A stretch of 42,881 nucleotides of DNA from Clostridiales bacterium (lineage in GTDB: Bacteria; Bacillota; Clostridia; Clostridiales; Clostridiaceae), in contig JAAYQS010000083.1 of the NCBI GenBank assembly GCA_012519155.1, positions 1 through 42,881 of the forward strand. The letters are read 5' to 3'. Every line of letters begins with the position of its first letter. The first letter of the stretch is position 1. The notes under the pieces are model-generated. The model had not been told where the DNA came from and did not search any database. It saw only the letters and a list, made by a program, of their open reading frames with translations. Positions 3,637-24,979 of the stretch are shown here, piece after piece. Both the position numbers and the translations under genes were made by a program.

Positions 3637-4170
3637 AAAGCACATGTTAAATATCTCGAAAATAAGTTCTATGAAATAGCAAAACATGTTAACAGATACA
3701 AGGTAATGAATGAGCAAGTACCTACAAAATCTAATGTATCTGAAGCGGAAGAATCTGAACTTGAAGAGTTTATTTATAATGCAAAAATCCTTGTATCTAT
3801 ATTAGGCCATAAGGTTTTTGAAGATGTAGCTGAAAGAAAAACAGATAATGCTGATGCAGAATATTTGTACATCAAAAACAATAGAGGAATTTCAGCTACT
3901 GGAATAATGACTTCTGATGGTTTTGTGGTATTAAAGGGTTCAGTTATTAGCAAAATGGAATCTGAGAATTCTTTAAGGGATGGAGTTATTAAGCTAAGGG
4001 ATAAATATATACTTGATGGAAAGATTAAAGAGTATGTTTTAGTAGAAGATATTCTTTTTAGTAGTTCATCTACTGCAGCACAATTTGTTCTAGGTATTAG
4101 TATTAGTGGTCCAAGAGCATGGAAAAATAAAAATGGAAAAACATTAAAAGAAATAGAATGTGAATTATAG
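3637..4170 (+). pseudogene. GIY-YIG/DUF4357 nuclease, 3' fragment (DUF4357 domain)
   Basis: This is the C-terminal 177 residues of the gene split by the transposon. KAHVKYLENKFYEIAK continues the GIY-YIG domain. After a linker, a DUF4357 domain follows (about the last 60 residues, including FSSSSTAAQFVLGISISGP and NKNGKTLKEIE). The frame is open back to an ATG at 3619, but that start is transposon sequence and has no ribosome site. It joins in frame to 268-585. A strong terminator follows directly, so this was the last gene of its transcription unit. Confidence 0.87.
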
Positions 4171-4223
4171 AAATAATCTGTCATATATCAAAAATAGTGT
4201 TGATATATGACAGATTATTTTTT
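4171..4223 (+). terminator. Intrinsic terminator after the GIY-YIG/DUF4357 gene
   Basis: A perfect 20-bp inverted repeat (stems 4171-4190 and 4201-4220, 10-nt loop) begins right after the stop codon and runs into TTTTTT. Its symmetry (A-run on one side, T-run on the other) could also stop transcripts from the right. It marks the end of host-type genes before the prophage control region. Confidence 0.9.
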
Positions 4224-4233
4224 ACAAATTTAA

Positions 4234-4263
4234 TTGACATATATTACCAATAAAAGGTAAAAT
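4234..4263 (+). promoter_or_regulatory. Promoter for the XRE/ImmA-type operon
   Basis: A consensus -35 TTGACA (4234-4239) and a -10-like TAAAAT (4258-4263) are separated by 18 bp, just after the upstream terminator and facing the XRE gene. This implies a leader of about 220 nt before the ATG at 4493. Confidence 0.65.
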
Positions 4264-4273
4264 AATATTAACA

Positions 4274-4313
4274 GATTAGCTTACAGTATATGGGTAAATG
4301 CAATAAGTTAATC
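4274..4313. promoter_or_regulatory. Putative operator downstream of the XRE promoter
   Basis: GATTAGCTTA (4274-4283) and TAAGTTAATC (4304-4313) are inverted with 9 of 10 matches. GCTTACA at 4279-4285 is the same heptamer as in the early-operon operators at 5724-5807. Its place near the expected transcription start suggests autoregulation by the XRE protein (inferred). Confidence 0.5.
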
Positions 4314-4492
4314 TTATACAATAATTTTATCTAAAGCTGAGCGTACTAGTAGAAACTATGGCTATAAAAAATAAGGTAACAGAAAATATATTATGGAGGA
4401 TAAGTTTTAAGGATAAATGCTAAATATCTACTAAAAAAATTATAAGAGAGTTGAGTAAAGGAAAATGAGTATAATGAAAAGGATGAGTATTA

Positions 4493-4870
4493 ATGAATAG
4501 TGATTTAAATCAAAGCTTTGGAGAATTTATTGCAAGCAAAAGAGAAGAAAAGAAAATTACTCTTAGAGAAATGGCTAGATTACTTAAGATTACACCACCA
4601 TATTTAAGTGACATTGAGAAGGATAGACGTAACTCTCCTGACAAAGATAAACTTGATGAAATAGCAAAGATACTTTCATTAAGCGAGGAGGAATGCAGAT
4701 ATATGTACGATTTAGCAGGCAAAAAGAGAAATTCAATTTCTCCAGACTTACCAGAGTATATTATGGAAAGAGATTATGTAAGAATTGCACTTCGTAAAGC
4801 TATGGATTTAGGAATAGGAGAGGCAGAGTGGAATAAGTTTGTTCAAGAACTTGAAAAAAGAAAGGGGTAG
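4493..4870 (+). CDS. XRE-family repressor-like regulator (ImmR-type)
   Basis: A 125-residue protein with an N-terminal Cro/C1-type helix-turn-helix (about residues 10-65: ITLREMARLLKITPPYLSDIE with recognition helix PYLSDIEKDRR) and a helical C-terminus. It is followed 8 nt later by an ImmA/IrrE metalloprotease gene. In ICEBs1 and many Gram-positive phages that pair is the lysogeny switch: ImmR represses and ImmA cleaves it after a signal. Here both genes point the same way as the early genes, not divergently. AAAGGA precedes the ATG. Likely targets are the GCTTACA sites at 4279 and 5724-5807. A host regulator of similar architecture cannot be excluded. Confidence 0.8.
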   Translation: MNSDLNQSFGEFIASKREEKKITLREMARLLKITPPYLSDIEKDRRNSPDKDKLDEIAKILSLSEEECRYMYDLAGKKRNSISPDLPEYIMERDYVRIALRKAMDLGIGEAEWNKFVQELEKRKG

Positions 4871-4878
4871 TTTCGCTC

Positions 4879-5652
4879 ATGTATAATCCAAAGTTTCGCA
4901 CCAAGAGAAATGGTGTTCCCATTTTAAGTAAAAATGAAATTGATGACATTGCGGAAGAATGTCTTAAGGAATTTGCACCTAAGGCACTAGAAAAACCTCA
5001 GGCTATTGATGAAGATAGGTTCTTAACAGAATACTTAAAACTAATTCAAGATTTTCAGTTTTTAACTCATTGTGGTATATATCTTGGGATGACTGTTTTT
5101 AATGATACAAATAAAGTAATTGTATATAATCCAAGTACAAATAGGGCAGAATATATAAAAGCAAAAGGAGGTACTGTTATTATAGATAATACTTTATTAG
5201 AAGAGGGGCAGGAACACAGATATAGATTTACTGCAATTCATGAAGCTGGTCATTGGATTTTGCATAGGAAGAAGTATTGCATAAAAAATAAAAATCCATT
5301 AATATATGATCAATTTACAAAAGATAATTTTAAATGCAGAGCAGCAATAATAGATGATAAGGTGAAGCCAGTATGTGAATGGAATGATAATGATAGCATG
5401 GAATGGCAGGCAAATTATTTTGCTGCTGCAATTTTAATGCCAAAGCCAGTATTAATTGGGCTTTGTGAAAATTCTAGACTTATTAGAAATCTAGACCTTA
5501 GGAGTCTTGGAAATACAGATGTATATAATGATCTTTTAGCAACACATATTTCTCATGTATTTAATGTTTCATTAAGAGCTGCAAAAGTAAGATTATATTA
5601 TTTAGGATTAACAAAGGCAAAAGTTGAAAGTTACAAAGTATTAATTAATTAA
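4879..5652 (+). CDS. ImmA/IrrE-family metalloendopeptidase
   Basis: A 257-residue protein with the zinc-protease motif HEAGH at 121-125 and a downstream acidic helix (SMEWQANYFAAAILMP) that supplies the third metal ligand and the family's hallmark Ala-rich helix. Members cleave the XRE repressor encoded beside them, relieving repression after DNA damage or other signals. It follows the XRE gene by 8 nt with a GGGG ribosome site, so the two form one operon. The N-terminal approximately 60 residues are not part of the protease core. Substrate assignment to the adjacent XRE protein is by analogy with ImmR/ImmA. Confidence 0.87.
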   Translation: MYNPKFRTKRNGVPILSKNEIDDIAEECLKEFAPKALEKPQAIDEDRFLTEYLKLIQDFQFLTHCGIYLGMTVFNDTNKVIVYNPSTNRAEYIKAKGGTVIIDNTLLEEGQEHRYRFTAIHEAGHWILHRKKYCIKNKNPLIYDQFTKDNFKCRAAIIDDKVKPVCEWNDNDSMEWQANYFAAAILMPKPVLIGLCENSRLIRNLDLRSLGNTDVYNDLLATHISHVFNVSLRAAKVRLYYLGLTKAKVESYKVLIN

Positions 5653-5682
5653 CATAGGAAAAATTAATCATACTTTTTTATC

Positions 5683-5710
5683 TATAGCATCCATAATATT
5701 GGGTGCTATA
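5683..5710 (+). terminator. Hairpin after ImmA, weak terminator
   Basis: TATAGCATCC (5683-5692) and GGGTGCTATA (5701-5710) pair with one G-T wobble around an 8-nt loop. Only a mixed A/T tract follows, so termination may be partial. Confidence 0.45.
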
Positions 5711-5723
5711 AATATAGATTTTA

Positions 5724-5807
5724 TGTAAGCAGAAAAGCTTACAAGAATATAAATATAATGAATATAAGTATATATCTACGCTTACAGTGTAAGCAAATAT
5801 GCTAACA
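5724..5807. promoter_or_regulatory. Operator cluster upstream of the early operon (GCTTACA/TGTAAGC)
   Basis: TGTAAGC (5724-5730) faces GCTTACA (5737-5743) across 6 nt. GCTTACA (5780-5786) faces TGTAAGC (5788-5794) across one base, making a 15-bp perfect palindrome. A one-mismatch half-site, GCTAACA, lies at 5801-5807. A possible promoter is overlapped: CTTACA at 5738-5743 as -35 and an AT-rich -10 near 5761-5768. The same heptamer lies in the XRE promoter region. These are the best candidates for the binding sites of the XRE regulator. Confidence 0.68.
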
Positions 5808-5837
5808 AGTAAATAAGCAATAAGGGAGCGATGATTA

Positions 5838-5972
5838 ATGACTAAAATTATTAAGTGTTCATGCTGTAACAAAAGAATGTTTGATTTAGTTAAATTTACT
5901 GCAGGAGAAATGATAATTGAAATTAAGTGCCCAAATTGCAAAAAAATCGTGAAAGTTAATTGTAAAAAATAA
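5838..5972 (+). CDS. Com-like small zinc-finger protein (44 aa)
   Basis: A 44-residue protein with two Cys pairs, CSCC near residues 7-10 and CPNC at 31-34, the pattern of the Com family, whose founder in phage Mu activates translation of the mom gene. AGGGAG lies 9 nt upstream of the ATG. It is the first gene after the operator cluster. Directly after its stop there is a long hairpin with a T-run. A role in RNA or DNA binding is likely from the fold; the target is not known, although the phage does carry a DNA methyltransferase further on. Confidence 0.72.
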   Translation: MTKIIKCSCCNKRMFDLVKFTAGEMIIEIKCPNCKKIVKVNCKK

Positions 5973-5974
5973 CT

Positions 5975-6057
5975 ACCGAGCAAGTGATCCATATAAAATA
6001 TGAGATACCAAATGGCCGGAGTAAAGCTAAGAAATTAGTTTGCTCTCGGTCATTTTT
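5975..6057 (+). terminator. Large structured hairpin with T-run after the Com-like gene
   Basis: ACCGAGCAA (5975-5983) pairs with TTGCTCTCGGT (6040-6050) with a 2-nt bulge. Inside, CTAA-GAAA-TTAG (6027-6038) forms a second hairpin with a GNRA tetraloop. CATTTTTTATTT follows. It can act as an intrinsic terminator, but the internal structure suggests a folded RNA element. Confidence 0.6.
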
Positions 6058-6127
6058 TATTTAATATGCTTTTTTCTTTAGCTTTACAAAGTCAAATCTT
6101 TGTTGGTAAAGAAAGGAGCAATAAATT

Positions 6128-6523
6128 ATGAAAATATCTTATGAATTTTTAACAGGAGAAATATTAGAAATTGAGGTACCTGAAAATATAGGGAGAATAT
6201 CAATTGAAATTGATAGAGAGATTTTTAATTGTAATAGAAGAGAAACAAGGAGACATAACTCTATTAATTATATGGAAGATACAGGACTTCAATTTACTGA
6301 TAATGCAGAAAATATAGAGGAAAAGATTGAAACACAAGAAACAAACTTTGAAATAGAAAAAGCCATTGCTTCATTATTACCGGAGCAAAAAGATTTAATT
6401 AATAAGGTGTTTTATAAAAATATGAAAATATCTCATATAGCAAAAGATTTAGGAGTAACTGAAGCTGCTATTAGAAATAGGTTAAAAAAAATATATAAAA
6501 AATTAAAAAAAATATTAAATTAG
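6128..6523 (+). CDS. Sigma-70-region-4-like transcription factor
   Basis: A 131-residue protein. The N-terminal ~55 residues (KISYEFLTGEILEIEVPENIG, with the RRETRRHNS motif) match small sigma-like proteins common in clostridial phages and Tn916-type elements. The C-terminal half holds a sigma region 4-type helix-turn-helix (about 90-125: KISHIAKDLGVTEAAIRNRL). A good AAGGAG precedes the ATG. A role in directing RNA polymerase to early or middle phage genes is probable but not proven. A second, larger sigma-like protein is encoded at 10704. Confidence 0.75.
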   Translation: MKISYEFLTGEILEIEVPENIGRISIEIDREIFNCNRRETRRHNSINYMEDTGLQFTDNAENIEEKIETQETNFEIEKAIASLLPEQKDLINKVFYKNMKISHIAKDLGVTEAAIRNRLKKIYKKLKKILN

Positions 6524-6593
6524 GGGTTCGATTTGTTAATTCCTGTGGCTTATTTATGTAAGGATTATTAATTAAATTATGGAGGCAATAATT

Positions 6594-6755
6594 ATGCAAA
6601 GTATAAAAGTTGTAATTACTAGAAGAGGGCCTACTAATATTATTTTAAAAGAAAGTACAAGAGATAATTTAAATAAAGAGAATAATAACTCAAAAATAAT
6701 AAGAATTGAAAGGAGTTACAAAAATAATGAAAAATGCAATCATTTCTATCATTAA
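6594..6755 (+). CDS. Small protein of unknown function (53 aa)
   Basis: A strong GGAGG lies 9 nt before the ATG. The product is basic (MQSIKVVITRRGPTNIILK...), without recognisable motifs. It overlaps the start of the next gene by 29 nt in another frame. Spacing and ribosome site support translation; function is unknown. Confidence 0.5.
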   Translation: MQSIKVVITRRGPTNIILKESTRDNLNKENNNSKIIRIERSYKNNEKCNHFYH

Positions 6756-7002
6756 TGATTTAAAAAGTTTAATAGGACATTTGGAAGAATTACAAAATAC
6801 TCAAGAGCAAAACGGCATAAGTCCAAAGGATGTAGAAAAGAAAGTAACTATTGAAGAAGTAAGGGCTATTCTTGCTGAAAAATCAAAAGATGGAAAAGTT
6901 AAAGAAGTTAAAGCACTAATAAAAAAACATGGTGCAGATAAATTAACAGCTTTAAATCCAGATTGTTATAAAGAAATATTAAAGGAGGCAAAGAAATTAT
7001 AA
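6727..7002 (+). CDS. Conserved phage early protein, function unknown (91 aa)
   Basis: It starts MKNAIISIIN at 6727 with AAGGAG about 11 nt upstream; a TTG at 6706 is in frame but overlaps that ribosome site. The product is a helical, charged protein with a VTIEEVRAILAEKSKDGK segment and a repeated Lys/Ala pattern, resembling small proteins found before DUF2800 genes in clostridial phages (sometimes loosely annotated 'rrp5'). It overlaps the preceding small gene and ends 1 nt before the DUF2800 start. It is probably involved in phage recombination or replication by position only. Confidence 0.65.
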   Translation: MKNAIISIINDLKSLIGHLEELQNTQEQNGISPKDVEKKVTIEEVRAILAEKSKDGKVKEVKALIKKHGADKLTALNPDCYKEILKEAKKL

Positions 7003-7003
7003 A

Positions 7004-8134
7004 ATGGGAGAACATGCATATTTAAGTGCCAGTTCATCTCACAGATGGCTTAAATGTACTCCATCAGCTAATTTGGAAAAAGATTTTAAAGATGAGTCAT
7101 CGCCATTTGCAGAAGAAGGAACTGCAGCACATGAATTAAGTGAATACAAAATTAAAAAATTCTTGAAAATAAAATGTCCCAAACCAAAGAGTGAATATTT
7201 CACTGATGAAATGAATGAATATACAGATGTATATGTTAATTATGCTAAGGAGTTAATTTATAAGACAAGGAAACAATGTAATGATCCTATAGTTTTAGTT
7301 GAACAAAAACTTGATTTTTCAGAGTATGTTCAAGATGGATTTGGTACTGGTGATTTAGTAATAGTGGCAGATAATATGCTTCATATAATTGATCTTAAAT
7401 ATGGAATGGGGGTTAAAGTATCTGCAGAGAGAAATTCTCAGATGTTTTTATATGCACTTGGTGCAATTAATTTGTTTGAAGCATTATATGATATAAAAAC
7501 TGTTAGTATGAGCATTGTACAACCAAGACTTGAGAACATTTCAAATTATGAAATTTCAGTAGAAGAGTTATTAGAGTGGGCAAATACTGAATTAAAAGAA
7601 AAAGCTGATATGGCATATAAAGGTGAAGGAGAATTTATTGTAGGAGAGCATTGCAGATTCTGTAAGGCAAAAGCTATATGTAGGTCGAGAGCAGAATATT
7701 TAATGGAAATTGCAAAAATGGAATTTAAAAGACCTGACTTGTTAACTCAAGAAGAAATAGCTGAGGTATTAGTTAGAGCAGGTGAACTTGCAAGGTGGGC
7801 AAATGATATTTATGCATATGCTCAAAATGAAGCCATAACTAAAGGAGTAAGGTGGCAAGGATTTAAGCTTGTAGAAGGAAGGTCAAATAGAAAATATTCA
7901 AATGAAGAACAAGTGTCAAAAGCAGCTATAGATGCTGGATTCAAAGATATTTATAAACAGACACTTATTGGAATAACAGATATGGAGAAACTTATGGGCA
8001 AGAAAAAGTTTAATGAAATATTAGGAAAATTTGTGTACAAGCCAAATGGTAAAATAACTCTTGTTCCTGAAAGTGATAAGAGAGAAGAAATAAAAAGTTC
8101 AAATGCAGAGTCAGATTTTAAGGAGGAAAAATAA
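7004..8134 (+). CDS. DUF2800 protein, PD-(D/E)XK nuclease-like (recombination exonuclease candidate)
   Basis: A 376-residue protein typical of DUF2800. The N-terminus has LSASSSHRWLKCTPSANLE and EEGTAAHELSEY, the first helix of Cas4/RecB-like nucleases. GTGDLVIVADNMLHIIDLKYG at about 116-136 carries the D...(D/E)xK motif. A C-terminal cysteine cluster (about 205-223, CRFCKAKAICRSR) could bind a metal or Fe-S cluster. It is paired with the DUF2815 gene downstream, a combination seen in many Firmicutes phages and thought to form an exonuclease/ssDNA-binding recombination module. AAGGAGG lies just upstream, within the end of the previous gene. Confidence 0.82.
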   Translation: MGEHAYLSASSSHRWLKCTPSANLEKDFKDESSPFAEEGTAAHELSEYKIKKFLKIKCPKPKSEYFTDEMNEYTDVYVNYAKELIYKTRKQCNDPIVLVEQKLDFSEYVQDGFGTGDLVIVADNMLHIIDLKYGMGVKVSAERNSQMFLYALGAINLFEALYDIKTVSMSIVQPRLENISNYEISVEELLEWANTELKEKADMAYKGEGEFIVGEHCRFCKAKAICRSRAEYLMEIAKMEFKRPDLLTQEEIAEVLVRAGELARWANDIYAYAQNEAITKGVRWQGFKLVEGRSNRKYSNEEQVSKAAIDAGFKDIYKQTLIGITDMEKLMGKKKFNEILGKFVYKPNGKITLVPESDKREEIKSSNAESDFKEEK

Positions 8135-19724: not shown

Positions 19725-19768
19725 GATAAATATATTTTGATTTTATGCTAATAACCTCTTGCAATTAT

Positions 19769-19805
19769 GTGCTTTTAGAGTGATTAATGTAATGACGAAA
19801 AGCAC
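19769..19805 (+). promoter_or_regulatory. Hairpin immediately before the amidoligase ribosome site
   Basis: GTGCTTTT (19769-19776) and AAAAGCAC (19798-19805) are perfectly inverted, and AGGAGG begins at the next base. It could influence translation of the amidoligase gene. The GGCT gene has a comparable hairpin. Confidence 0.45.
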
Positions 19806-19818
19806 AGGAGGTAAGTAA

Positions 19819-20712
19819 ATGAGAAATCAAAGATTTGGAATAGAAATAGAATTTACAGGAATAACAAGAGAAATAGCAGCAAATGAAATTGCCAGTTATT
19901 ATAAAACAGAAAACTATTATATTGGTGGTGCTTATAGAACATATGAGGTAAGAGACAATAAAAGTAGGACATGGAAAATCATGAGCGATTCAAGTATAAT
20001 AGCAGAACAAAAATTTTGTGATAAAAAAATATCAGCAGATAGTAATTTTAAGGTAGAGCTTGTAAGCCCAATATTAACATATGATGATATTGATGATTTA
20101 CAAGGAATTGTTAGAAAACTTAGAAAGGCAGGAGCATTTATAAATAAAAGCTGTGGTATACATGTTCATATTGATGCTAAAGCACATACGCCATCAAGTT
20201 TAAAGAATTTAGTTAATATTATTGCAAGCAAAGAAAATATGATTTATAAAACTTTGGATATCCCCTATGAAAGACTACGATATTGTAAAAAAGTAAATGA
20301 AAAATTAATAGAAAAAATAAATTCAAAAAAACCAAAAACAATAAGTGAACTTGCAGACATATGGTATGAAGATTATGGTGTTCAAAGTAGGACTGCTCAC
20401 TATAATAACAGTAGATATCATGGATTAAATCTTCATAGCACATTTACTAAAGGCACAGTTGAGTTTAGAATTTTTAATTCAACGCTACATGCAGGAAAAA
20501 TCAAAGCCTACATACAATTTTGTTTAGCAGTGAGCTATCAGGCATTGATACAAAAGAAGGCAAGTTCAAAAAGGACAATAACTGATAATGAAAAATATGC
20601 TTTCAGGTGTTGGATGTTGAGACTTGGATTGATTGGCGATGAATTTAAAACATGCAGATATCATTTTTTGAAGAATTTAGAAGGAAACAGTGCATGGAGA
20701 CATGCAGTATAA
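19819..20712 (+). CDS. Amidoligase-family enzyme (Amidoligase_2, COOH-NH2 ligase fold)
   Basis: A 297-residue protein with the motifs of the glutamine-synthetase-like amidoligase superfamily: FGIEIEFTG near 6-14, VELVSPIL near 77-84, CGIHVHIDA near 113-121 and VEFRIFNST near 214-222, supplying the predicted metal/ATP-binding acids and His. Members are predicted to join a carboxyl group to an amine with ATP; the substrate in phages is unknown. It stands next to a gamma-glutamylcyclotransferase, a repeated pairing that suggests making and breaking of a gamma-glutamyl or isopeptide linkage. AGGAGG precedes the ATG. Confidence 0.85.
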   Translation: MRNQRFGIEIEFTGITREIAANEIASYYKTENYYIGGAYRTYEVRDNKSRTWKIMSDSSIIAEQKFCDKKISADSNFKVELVSPILTYDDIDDLQGIVRKLRKAGAFINKSCGIHVHIDAKAHTPSSLKNLVNIIASKENMIYKTLDIPYERLRYCKKVNEKLIEKINSKKPKTISELADIWYEDYGVQSRTAHYNNSRYHGLNLHSTFTKGTVEFRIFNSTLHAGKIKAYIQFCLAVSYQALIQKKASSKRTITDNEKYAFRCWMLRLGLIGDEFKTCRYHFLKNLEGNSAWRHAV

Positions 20713-20717
20713 AAGAG

Positions 20718-20737
20718 GCCTGTGTTAATACACAGGC
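20718..20737 (+). promoter_or_regulatory. Hairpin between amidoligase and GGCT genes
   Basis: GCCTGTGT-TAAT-ACACAGGC, 8-bp perfect stem just after the amidoligase stop. No T-run follows, so it probably adjusts mRNA stability or relative expression. Confidence 0.55.
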
Positions 20738-20763
20738 TAAATATGAAAGGAGAGAAATTGGAT

Positions 20764-21186
20764 ATGAAAAGAAAATTATATGTTGCATATGGTAGTAACT
20801 TACATAAGGAACAAATGAGTTATAGATGCAAGGATGCAGTTGAAGTAGGAACTGGCATAATTAAAGATTATGAACTATTATTTAAAGGATCTAAGACAGG
20901 GGCTTATGCAACTATAGAAAAGAAAGAAGGAAGTATAGTTCCTGTGCTTGTTTGGGATATTTCTGAAGATGATGAAAAGTCATTAAATAGATATGAAGGG
21001 TATCCAAAGTTTTATTTTAAGAGGGATATTGAAGTTGTAATGGATAGTGGTGAAGTTATAGAGGGTATGGTCTATATTATGGATCAAACAAGAAAAAATG
21101 GAATTCCTAGTGATTGGTATTATAATGTGATTAAGGAATCCTATAAGAGGTTAGGATTTGATATACAATTATTAAATAATGGTTAA
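20764..21186 (+). CDS. Gamma-glutamylcyclotransferase/AIG2-like protein
   Basis: A 140-residue protein starting MKRKLYVAYGSNL at 20764 with AAAGGAG upstream (an upstream TTG in frame lacks a site). The YGSNL substrate-binding loop is at 8-12 and the catalytic Glu is in NRYEGYPKFY near residue 79. GGCT enzymes release 5-oxoproline from gamma-glutamyl amines. Paired with the amidoligase, it may trim or reverse a gamma-glutamyl modification of a peptide, protein or small molecule; the substrate cannot be read from sequence. Confidence 0.87.
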   Translation: MKRKLYVAYGSNLHKEQMSYRCKDAVEVGTGIIKDYELLFKGSKTGAYATIEKKEGSIVPVLVWDISEDDEKSLNRYEGYPKFYFKRDIEVVMDSGEVIEGMVYIMDQTRKNGIPSDWYYNVIKESYKRLGFDIQLLNNG

Positions 21187-21323: not shown

Positions 21324-21352
21324 GGTCTTATTTAATAAAGTAAGGCCTTTTT
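21324..21352 (+). terminator. Terminator upstream of terS
   Basis: GGTCTTA (21324-21330) and TAAGGCC (21341-21347) form a 7-bp stem with one G-T wobble, followed by TTTTTC. It separates the accessory genes from the packaging operon. Confidence 0.7.
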
Positions 21353-23410: not shown

Positions 23411-23453
23411 ATTAATAATTAAAACAGGTATATAATAAAAATATTATAAAGTA

Positions 23454-23493
23454 TCAATGTATTTTGGTATCATATGATACCAAAATACATTGA
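23454..23493. terminator. 40-bp perfect palindrome after terL
   Basis: Twenty bases (starting TCAATGTATTTTGG) are perfectly inverted with no spacer, centred on 23473/23474. As RNA it is a very long hairpin but without a T-run. It marks the left border of the toxin-antitoxin-like insertion between terL and the portal gene. It may act as a bidirectional terminator or as a binding site for the adjacent HTH antitoxin. Confidence 0.75.
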
Positions 23494-23516
23494 CTAGTTT
23501 AAGTATGGAGGGTATA

Positions 23517-23957
23517 ATGGTATCAAAAGATGGTAATACTGAAAAATATATAGAATCAAAAGAGGAAGTCGAAACATATGTTGCAAAGCTAAAATATTCT
23601 TTGACGAAGCCCGCAACCAAAATAAACTTTCAAGAAAAAAGAAAAGTTGATGAAAATAGACAAGAGGAATATACAAATAAATTTACAATTGGAGATTTGT
23701 TCCCTGACGAGAGTCCAAAAGAAGCACTAAAAAGAGAATTAAATAATATAATGGTAGAAGACTATATAGAAACCGTAAAAGATTTAAGATATCCTAAAAG
23801 AAGTGATATGAGGGTATTTGGAAAAGTATATAAACAAAAAGATGTTTATATAAAAATAAGAGTTGAAATAATATCAGATGATTATATTTTCGTAATGTCT
23901 TTCCATTATTCTACTAGAAGTTTTTCTGATGAAACATTTCCTTATAAGAGGAGGTAA
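23517..23957 (+). CDS. Candidate toxin partner of a Panacea-type antitoxin (146 aa, unknown family)
   Basis: It starts at 23517 with GGAGGG 4 nt upstream; a TTG at 23490 lies within the palindrome. I do not recognise the family with confidence. The N-terminal half is charged and helical; the C-terminal half is beta-rich (GKVYKQKDVYIKIRVEIIS then YIFVMSFHYSTRSF) and ends in a basic FPYKRR, broadly like RelE/MqsR-type RNase toxins. It sits 5 nt before an MqsA/Panacea-type antitoxin gene, the usual toxin-first order of MqsRA-like modules. Toxin status rests on position. Confidence 0.5.
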   Translation: MVSKDGNTEKYIESKEEVETYVAKLKYSLTKPATKINFQEKRKVDENRQEEYTNKFTIGDLFPDESPKEALKRELNNIMVEDYIETVKDLRYPKRSDMRVFGKVYKQKDVYIKIRVEIISDDYIFVMSFHYSTRSFSDETFPYKRR

Positions 23958-23962
23958 ACAAA

Positions 23963-24979
23963 ATGAAAGTAATAACAACAATGAATAAGTTATGCTTAAG
24001 TTGTATGGAAGTTCACAATGTTAAGGAAGTTGAAGTAGAGGAAGAAGTAATATTTAAAGAGCAAAAAGTTAAGTATATGGCTACATATGAATATTGTGAT
24101 AAAACTGAAGAATTTACTGAAACAGAAGAAATGATAGATGGTAATGATATAAAATTAAAAAATGCTTACAGAAAAATAGTAGGATTACTGACTTCTGATG
24201 AAATAGTTAATATTAGAGATAAATATGGTGTTAGTCAAAAGGATTTTTCAGAAATATTAGGTTGGGGAAGAGCAACTATTACTAGGTATGAAAATCATCA
24301 GGTACAAGATGTTGCTCATGATGATTTTTTGAAAAAAATTGATTCTGATCCTGAATGGTTTTTGGAGTTGTTAGATAGAGCAAAGGATAGGATAAGTGAA
24401 AAAGCCTATAATAAGTATCAAGAAAGAGCAAAAGATATATATAATTCAATAAAAAATGAATATTTAGTGGGGTATATAAGAGCAGTATATGCTAAAATTC
24501 ATGATAATTTGTTGGTTGGATGTAATGCATTAAATATTAATAAGATAGTTGATGAAGTTAATTATTTAGCACAAAAAGTACAAAGTTTGCATAAAGTCAA
24601 GCTAATGAAGATGTTATGGTATTCTGATACGTTATCATATAAGAGAAGAGGTTTTTCAATAACTGGATTGGCATACAGAGCACTTCCAATGGGGGCAGTT
24701 CCTGAAGGCTATGAACAGATTGTTTTATTAGAAGGTGTAACTTATGATAATAAGTTATATGGTGAAAATATTGCATATAAATTTAAGCCTACCAAGGATT
24801 ATAAAATTAAATTTTTGTCTAATGATGATATGTCAATAATAGACGATGTTATCGAAAAATTTGGTGGTATGAAAACTGAAGAAATTGTAGATGTTATGCA
24901 TGAAGAAGTGGCATATAAAGAAACAGGTGCAAATGATTTGATTTCATATCAATTTGCAGAAGTACTTTCAATTGAATAA
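23963..24979 (+). CDS. Zinc-finger/HTH/Panacea (DUF4065, SocA-like) antitoxin
   Basis: A 338-residue protein in three parts. An N-terminal MqsA/YgiT-like zinc finger begins CLSCMEVHNV (residues 9-18), although the second metal pair looks incomplete (a single Cys in YEYCDK). An XRE-type HTH follows at about 88-115 (YGVSQKDFSEILGWGRATITRYE). A C-terminal Panacea domain begins near 200 with VQSLHKVKLMKMLWYSD. Panacea-domain proteins (PanA) neutralise many unrelated toxins and can defend against phage. The module lies between terL and portal, bounded by a palindrome and a terminator: a moron in the late operon. AGGAGG precedes the ATG. Confidence 0.82.
   Translation: MKVITTMNKLCLSCMEVHNVKEVEVEEEVIFKEQKVKYMATYEYCDKTEEFTETEEMIDGNDIKLKNAYRKIVGLLTSDEIVNIRDKYGVSQKDFSEILGWGRATITRYENHQVQDVAHDDFLKKIDSDPEWFLELLDRAKDRISEKAYNKYQERAKDIYNSIKNEYLVGYIRAVYAKIHDNLLVGCNALNINKIVDEVNYLAQKVQSLHKVKLMKMLWYSDTLSYKRRGFSITGLAYRALPMGAVPEGYEQIVLLEGVTYDNKLYGENIAYKFKPTKDYKIKFLSNDDMSIIDDVIEKFGGMKTEEIVDVMHEEVAYKETGANDLISYQFAEVLSIE

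Follow-up and report, generated by a model that had tools for sequence, protein, structure and literature searches.

A predicted amidoligase and gamma-glutamylcyclotransferase gene pair of a temperate-phage-like clostridial contig and its relatives in phages and conjugative elements

What would a phage do with two neighboring enzymes that might make and break the same bond? The question is raised by a 42,881-nucleotide contig from a Clostridiales bacterium (JAAYQS010000083.1 of assembly GCA_012519155.1; this whole stretch of DNA is referred to here as the window), in which the gene for a predicted amidoligase is followed by that for a predicted gamma-glutamylcyclotransferase (GGCT).

The two genes and their setting

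The window is a temperate-phage-like contig with transposase, transposition protein, DNA polymerase, helicase, portal, head, and tape-measure genes, and a Pfam scan also revealed HNH, ParB-methyltransferase, and terminase genes. The pair is located on the plus strand between the methyltransferase, which lies just upstream, and the terminase (Table 1). The two frames match PF12224 and PF06094, respectively, and in agreement with a preliminary description of the locus, the genes are adjacent and lie among DNA modification and packaging genes. Each of these two families has a single match in the 2.7-Mb assembly, namely, the window protein.

Table 1. Features in and around the amidoligase and GGCT genes of the window
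Feature	Position	Strand	Evidence or remark
Amidoligase, 297 aa	19819..20712	+	PF12224 Amidoligase_2, E 2.6e-75; predicted glutamate-cysteine-ligase/glutamine-synthetase-like ligase
GGCT/GGACT, 140 aa from ATG 20764	20764..21186	+	PF06094, 1.6e-14; human GGCT 2pn7, E 8.8e-6
Promoter-like site (CTTGCA ... AGAGTGATTA)	19758..19786	+	Motif recurring in related phages
Hairpin 1, 9-bp arms 19768-19776/19798-19806 around AGAGTGATTA box	19768..19806	+	
Hairpin 2, 8-bp arms, 4-nt loop, between the two genes	20718..20737	+	z -5.5
Terminator-like hairpin and T tail, before terminase small subunit	21324..21347	+	

The amidoligase scores 253.9 bits against PF12224, for which the curated cutoff is 22, and also matches phrog_2443. 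Its predicted model falls within the glutamine synthetase (GS)/glutamate-cysteine ligase (GCL) fold superfamily: in a structure comparison, the nearest folds were those of the glutamate-cysteine ligase family (YbdK, plant GCL, and GshA, with 9 to 14 percent identity in the alignments), followed by GS and Dop, and GmaS and the glutamine synthetases ranked lower than the glutamate-cysteine ligases. By analogy with GS, we take the conserved acidic, histidine, and arginine residues to be catalytic. D57 and R217 are kept in 167 of 167 distinct amidoligase domains, H115 and E215 in 166, and E9, E11, E80, and H117 in 165, and all nine key residues (E9, E11, D57, E80, H115, H117, H206, E215, and R217) are kept in 161 of the 167 active-type amidoligases. 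The protein is thus predicted, from its sequence and structural model, to be an ATP-dependent ligase that probably forms amide bonds.

For the GGCT, the Pfam scan was run on the frame from 20722 to 21186 and returned PF06094 (GGACT; 54.9 bits versus a cutoff of 22.8) and PF13772 (4.8e-8); the frame also matches phrog_2520. GTG 20722 was rejected as the start codon, as it is located inside hairpin 2, and ATG 20764, which has a ribosome site (AAAGGAG at 20746-20752, 11 nt upstream), is the likelier start. Human GGCT (2pn7) is the best PDB sequence match; the similarity is weak, and the YGSN motif is common to both proteins. This motif (Y9-G10-S11-N12) and E78, presumably the catalytic glutamate, are kept in 144 of 144 distinct GGCTs. 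The enzyme is predicted to release 5-oxoproline; GGCT-fold proteins can have other activities. Hence, both active-site sets are intact in the window proteins, as had been proposed, and the catalytic residues are retained in most homologues.

Pairing in phages and conjugative elements

Relatives were gathered by similarity to the window amidoligase, from sets that overlap and are not representative of all Amidoligase_2 proteins. They comprise 80 of 144 confirmed IMG/VR loci, 80 of 131 from GTDB genomes, 30 loci (the window's own included) written out from 51 matching genomes among 194 of the same family, and four regions fetched from the 101 phage records in which the amidoligase had a match. 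A pair was counted when a GGCT gene was found no more than 2.5 kb downstream on the same strand, and only loci with at least 1 kb of downstream sequence were considered. By this measure, the amidoligase gene is followed by a GGCT gene in 70 of 79 IMG/VR, 73 of 78 GTDB, 27 of 29 same-family, and 3 of 3 fetched phage loci. The pairing is therefore real and conserved among close relatives, and in this set, far from being rarely found together, the two genes are usual companions.

No GGCT was found near the amidoligase in 16 loci with enough downstream sequence. Among these, L057, L062, L063, L064, L067, L069, L140, L142, L144, and L148 form a lineage with an amidoligase and without a GGCT, whose GTDB members are Acidaminococcus and in most loci of which a different conserved open reading frame (ORF) of about 160 aa lies downstream of the amidoligase; the others are L068, L074, L085, L093, L098, and L153.

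We consider it highly improbable that the two are unrelated cargo genes that lie side by side by chance and share no substrate. It is of note that some loci carry the ligase only and that this GGCT is matched at 1e-5 in no more than 44 phage records, compared with 101 for the amidoligase, so that more than half of the latter show no match to it; more distant amidoligases may do without a GGCT. Against chance, however, stands the co-occurrence of the genes in most close relatives of both element types, and their trees correlate (r of 0.41 over 139 pairs, compared with 0.10 for the best of 500 permutations), with values of 0.58 within 100 phage-type pairs and 0.64 within 29 conjugative-type pairs. 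Moreover, all 40 GGCT-bearing phage records listed, of the 44, have an amidoligase, 39 of them among the amidoligase matches listed and 1 by annotation.

The second type of element is marked by an ATPase gene for which "VirB4-like" is our own label; in L187 and L163, Pfam identified TraG-type P-loop and AAA_10 domains in its product. A relative of this ATPase is present at 33 GTDB and 2 same-family loci, and in 35 of 35 its end and the amidoligase frame that follows are at most 517 nt apart. TrbL is encoded in L187 and was found by BLAST in 6 of 29 conjugative loci with long flanks. A GGCT is present in 34 of the 35 loci, the exception (L165) ending soon after the amidoligase, and a homologue of the NlpC/P60 protein of L187 or the M23 protein of L178 follows the pair in 33, the exceptions (L165 and L175) having less than 1 kb of downstream sequence. 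These two hydrolase queries cross-match, and the catalytic domain was checked in L187 and L178 only. Among the VirB4-like loci fetched as a control, L198 and L204 have the hydrolase downstream without the pair, L196 has an amidoligase, and the remaining loci gave no hydrolase match within flanks of about 1.5 kb. Because L198 and L204 have the hydrolase in the absence of the pair, adjacency to a peptidoglycan hydrolase is weak support for a cell wall target. We also noticed a C5 cytosine methylase gene upstream of the VirB4-amidoligase-GGCT block in L187 (1022-2743) and L163 (496-2424).

The locus had been put forward as the best candidate in the window for an undescribed pathway. The pairing itself is already described, being in print for several phages and a Clostridium difficile island. 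A table from 2012 lists a DNA methylase, a virulence-related protein, an amidoligase, an AIG2/GGCT-like protein, and a phage terminase (PMC3485107), and elsewhere an amidoligase and a GGCT/AIG2 protein are given as neighboring genes 97 and 98 (PMC5513430), two amidoligases are followed by a GGCT (PMC11253131), and the genes concerned are ORFs 35, 37, and 39 (PMC11318856). In these papers, the amidoligase is either immediately next to the GGCT/AIG2 gene or separated from it by a few genes. The pair is not among the nine core genes of the Heliusviridae given in passages of PMC9226167. A modification of the cell wall or surface against superinfection has already been proposed with reference to Iyer et al. 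(PMC11318856 and PMC11253131, both citing Iyer et al. 2009, and PMC5498523), and no enzyme assay of the pair is reported in the relevant passages of the cited papers.

Similar to the window, the phiEco32-, RIO-1-, and LUZ24-type podoviruses have an amidoligase and a GGCT, there nonadjacent, in one gene block for which wall modification was proposed (PMC3890496 and PMC5498523). As described in passages of those papers, these blocks add a COOH-NH2 ligase or second amidoligase, an ATP-grasp enzyme, and a glutamine amidotransferase. None of the four GATase_6 matches in the assembly studied here is on the window contig, and PF14395 (COOH-NH2 ligase) gave no match in a search run without a positive control. 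Among clostridial phages, records of "Ca. Heliusvirales," prophages of C. clostridioforme and Terrisporobacter, and the phage part of C. difficile Tn6164 have the same general order as the window, with a methyltransferase, in some a paralogue of the amidoligase, the amidoligase, the GGCT, and the terminase, and with small ORFs intervening in some; unlike them, the window has neither the paralogue nor the RNA element R1 described below. The window pair thus belongs to an already known kind of gene pair, one that is frequent in clostridial phages and present in conjugative elements. What looks new lies in the relatives, namely, a structured GGCT leader, a paralogue that appears catalytically dead, and the conjugative version; no description of these three was found in the passages of the amidoligase and cyclotransferase literature searched.

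Flanking signals, the RNA element R1, and the amidoligase paralogue

The promoter-like pattern, which was written after the sequences of relatives had been inspected, matches the window twice, upstream of the amidoligase gene and at 8080 on the minus strand. It is found no more than 140 nt upstream of the amidoligase in 74 of 101 phage-type, 3 of 14 unassigned, and 0 of 31 conjugative-type cases, and it also precedes 40 of 76 paralogues by no more than 160 nt. The motif is shared beyond the pair, with 116 further matches in 1.09 Mb of phage-type loci, a figure in which many neighboring starts are counted twice. We infer that the window site is a putative promoter. Hairpin 1 surrounds the box of this site, which is preceded by a TTG-type hexamer. 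At this position in 73 phage-type loci, the window included, the longest arm pair has a mean of 6.1, versus 4.6 with one side shuffled; arms of at least 7 surround the site in 29 of the 73, and the arm sequences differ. This inverted repeat could be an operator or an RNA hairpin. At the other end of the pair, a terminator-like site is located no more than 300 nt from the GGCT stop codon in 25 of 90 phage-type loci, including the window, compared with 0.5 expected from mononucleotide shuffles. Flanked in the window by both the promoter-like and the terminator-like signal, the pair looks like an autonomous, moron-like unit, as in prophage cargo.

Each gene had been said to follow a perfect 8-bp hairpin near its ribosome site. 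Both hairpins are present, perfect, and so placed, but the arms of hairpin 1 are 9 bp long and it also overlaps the promoter-like site. Each alone is a weak signal, since such inverted repeats are common in this AT-rich window: perfect 8-bp repeats with loops of 3 to 25 nt occur at 78 start positions, versus 43.6 (standard deviation, 7.9) in 30 first-order Markov sequences. Nor do the two form one kind, as they had been grouped, for hairpin 1 lies at the promoter-like site, and hairpin 2 occupies the position of a structured leader in relatives.

The stability of hairpin 2 is unusually high given its sequence, and relatives also show structure at this position. Fold z-scores were calculated for amidoligase-GGCT gaps of 40 to 200 nt, a range that the shorter gaps of most conjugative loci do not reach. 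The mean was -2.77 for 78 phage-type loci, including the window, with 58 below -2, and was -1.56 for 7 conjugative loci and -1.26 for 6 others. Many phage-type loci share an element, R1, composed of a 6-bp stem, CTT, and then AGGTGGTAG[AG]AGG. With a model built from 26 sequences, 49 matches at an E value of no more than 0.1 were obtained in 100 sources totaling 1.135 Mb; 22 of them are in training loci and match by construction. In 48 of the 49, the amidoligase ends no more than 80 nt upstream and the GGCT starts no more than 80 nt downstream, and the remaining match immediately precedes the second of two GGCT genes in L046. The L046 region from about 4150 to 7396 contains both of these genes, with R1 before each, and a paralogue-like frame, which suggests that R1 travels with the GGCT. 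In IMG/VR, the exact motif is present on 44 contigs, with a GGCT just downstream in 40 and an amidoligase just upstream in 38; the other 4 contigs carry one near-identical high-GC sequence.

The stem of R1 covaries in the relatives. After reanchoring by script, 41 of 56 distinct cores are fully paired, 13 have 5 of 6 pairs, and 2 have fewer, compared with 1.4 percent fully paired after shuffling of the 5' side, and double-sided changes are seen at 5 of 6 positions. The reanchoring left the loop length free and was chosen after the sequences had been seen, MAFFT having misplaced rows with a different stem. In the MAFFT alignment itself, 87.7 percent of cells are paired, a value reached by 0 of 500 shuffles; its stem covariation score was beaten by 2 of 500 shuffles, a slid version of the stem scored higher, and only one pair has a double-sided change, no better than in shuffles. 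RNAalifold on alignment A5 gave only a 4-bp helix, and we placed the 6-bp stem manually, guided by column counts. No Rfam family matched at gathering thresholds in the nine loci searched. The window has no R1 match (the best hit, with filters off, was 9.9 bits and away from the gene junction), and its hairpin 2 resembles R1 in position only. R1 provides a concrete handle for testing, and a conserved leader on the GGCT gene suggests that the dose of this enzyme matters.

Another reading is a guard pair, in which the ligase would cap an essential amine and thereby harm the cell or a rival, with the GGCT as an antidote dosed through the RNA leader. In many relatives, a structured leader precedes the GGCT alone, so that the amount of this enzyme may be adjusted separately, yet the ligase has no GGCT nearby in the 16 loci listed above, and we regard this arrangement as quite unlikely.

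Many related phages encode a second full-length amidoligase homologue, usually just upstream of the first. The kinship rests on profile comparison (hhalign probability, 100; E value, 2.7e-41; 236 columns); PHROGs place the three tested paralogues with amidoligases, and Foldseek with the paralogue model gave no significant match. We found 81 distinct paralogues and counted residues in the 59 with at least 180 aa. No more than two of the nine key residues are kept in any of the 59, and none is kept in 35, from which the paralogue is judged to be catalytically dead. A C-terminal part is conserved in both amidoligase and paralogue, and in the latter, N257, K259, R263, R280, and G289 are present in 59 of 59, A292 in 58, R268 and G270 in 57, and G273 in 46. 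Where 1.5 kb of upstream sequence was available, the paralogue gene lies upstream in 52 of 68 IMG/VR and 28 of 75 GTDB loci; all 4 phage records also have it there, and in 2 further IMG/VR loci it is downstream only. It was not found in the window or its assembly. Parsimony on the amidoligase tree gives 11 changes between presence and absence of the paralogue, which is an upper bound, as loci with short flanks were counted as lacking it. Going by gene order, the matching gene is the one printed as a "virulence-related protein" in the table of PMC3485107. The existence of such a dead copy suggests an enzyme with two subunits.

Possible functions of the pair

The make-and-break cycle of an amide or gamma-glutamyl bond envisaged in the preliminary description is a reasonable prediction in light of the adjacency and wider pairing of the genes, their conserved residues, and a ligase model close to gamma-glutamyl ligases; a gamma-glutamyl cycle in particular is sensible because the nearest folds are glutamate-cysteine ligases. 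The chemistry and the target that follow are inferred. Our best explanation, held tentatively and with slightly less than even confidence, is a moron-like unit of a temperate phage that makes a reversible gamma-glutamyl cap and so changes the reception of competing mobile DNA. The amidoligase, with ATP, would join the gamma-carboxyl group of glutamate to an amine on a cell surface or cell wall target, and the GGCT would take the gamma-glutamyl group off as 5-oxoproline, restoring the amine; with one enzyme adding and the other removing, the cap would be reversible. If expressed in the lysogen, the cap could alter how the cell receives rival mobile DNA, by superinfection or entry exclusion. Phages and VirB4-bearing conjugative elements are unrelated as mobile elements, but both carry the pair and both need control over the entry of rival DNA, and we count this in favor of the cap. 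For a cyclotransferase to act, the alpha-amine of the glutamyl group must be free. An ordinary D-glutamyl bond within peptidoglycan therefore cannot be the substrate, and a pendant glutamate has to be assumed.

Alternatively, the cycle might concern a small molecule and no wall target at all: the ligase would form a gamma-glutamyl amine, for instance, from a polyamine or an amino acid, which the GGCT would break, so that free amine or 5-oxoproline would be tuned in the course of infection. The ligase fold is nearest to glutamate-cysteine ligases and then to GmaS and glutamine synthetases, all small-amine enzymes, and the solved-structure relative of the GGCT is the human enzyme. However, on its own, this fails to account for the occurrence of the pair in both phages and conjugative elements or for the conserved C-terminal part that the ligase has in common with the dead paralogue, and we consider it rather unlikely.

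The proximity of DNA methylases, to the pair in two conjugative loci and of a methyltransferase in the window, speaks against the surface cap, and the pair may have a DNA-related role. It might decorate phage DNA or a base-linked amine together with the neighboring ParB-methyltransferase; a ParB-N and N6/N4 methyltransferase is encoded just upstream in the window, and a C5 methylase is upstream in the two conjugative loci. Against this, no base-hypermodification enzyme was found among the 20 window proteins scanned (10 by Pfam and 10 others by PHROGs), and DNA modification seems very unlikely.

Returning to the reversible cap, a fuller picture, which we regard as doubtful, would have phages and conjugative elements share gamma-glutamyl capping by an active ligase, accompanied in many phages by the dead paralogue, with GGCT output in phages controlled by an uncatalogued structured RNA leader that sets the extent of cap erasure. 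The window would then be a reduced form without the dead partner, in which a plain hairpin replaces the leader. R1 and the dead paralogue make the old prediction of a phage-made wall or peptide modification directly testable.

Several other features of the window were noticed. A transposase (PHROGs 310) and a DNA transposition protein (PHROGs 296) are encoded on the minus strand at 762-2809, and judging from these genes, the phage, which has its own DNA polymerase and helicases, may be transposable. Between terminase and portal, an antitoxin-like gene with SocA/Panacea, MqsA-like, and HTH matches is located on the plus strand at 23963-24979, and a 155-aa ORF just upstream of it (23490-23957) could be its partner. 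A very long hairpin with 19 pairs, scored as terminator-like on the minus strand, is located at 23453-23494.
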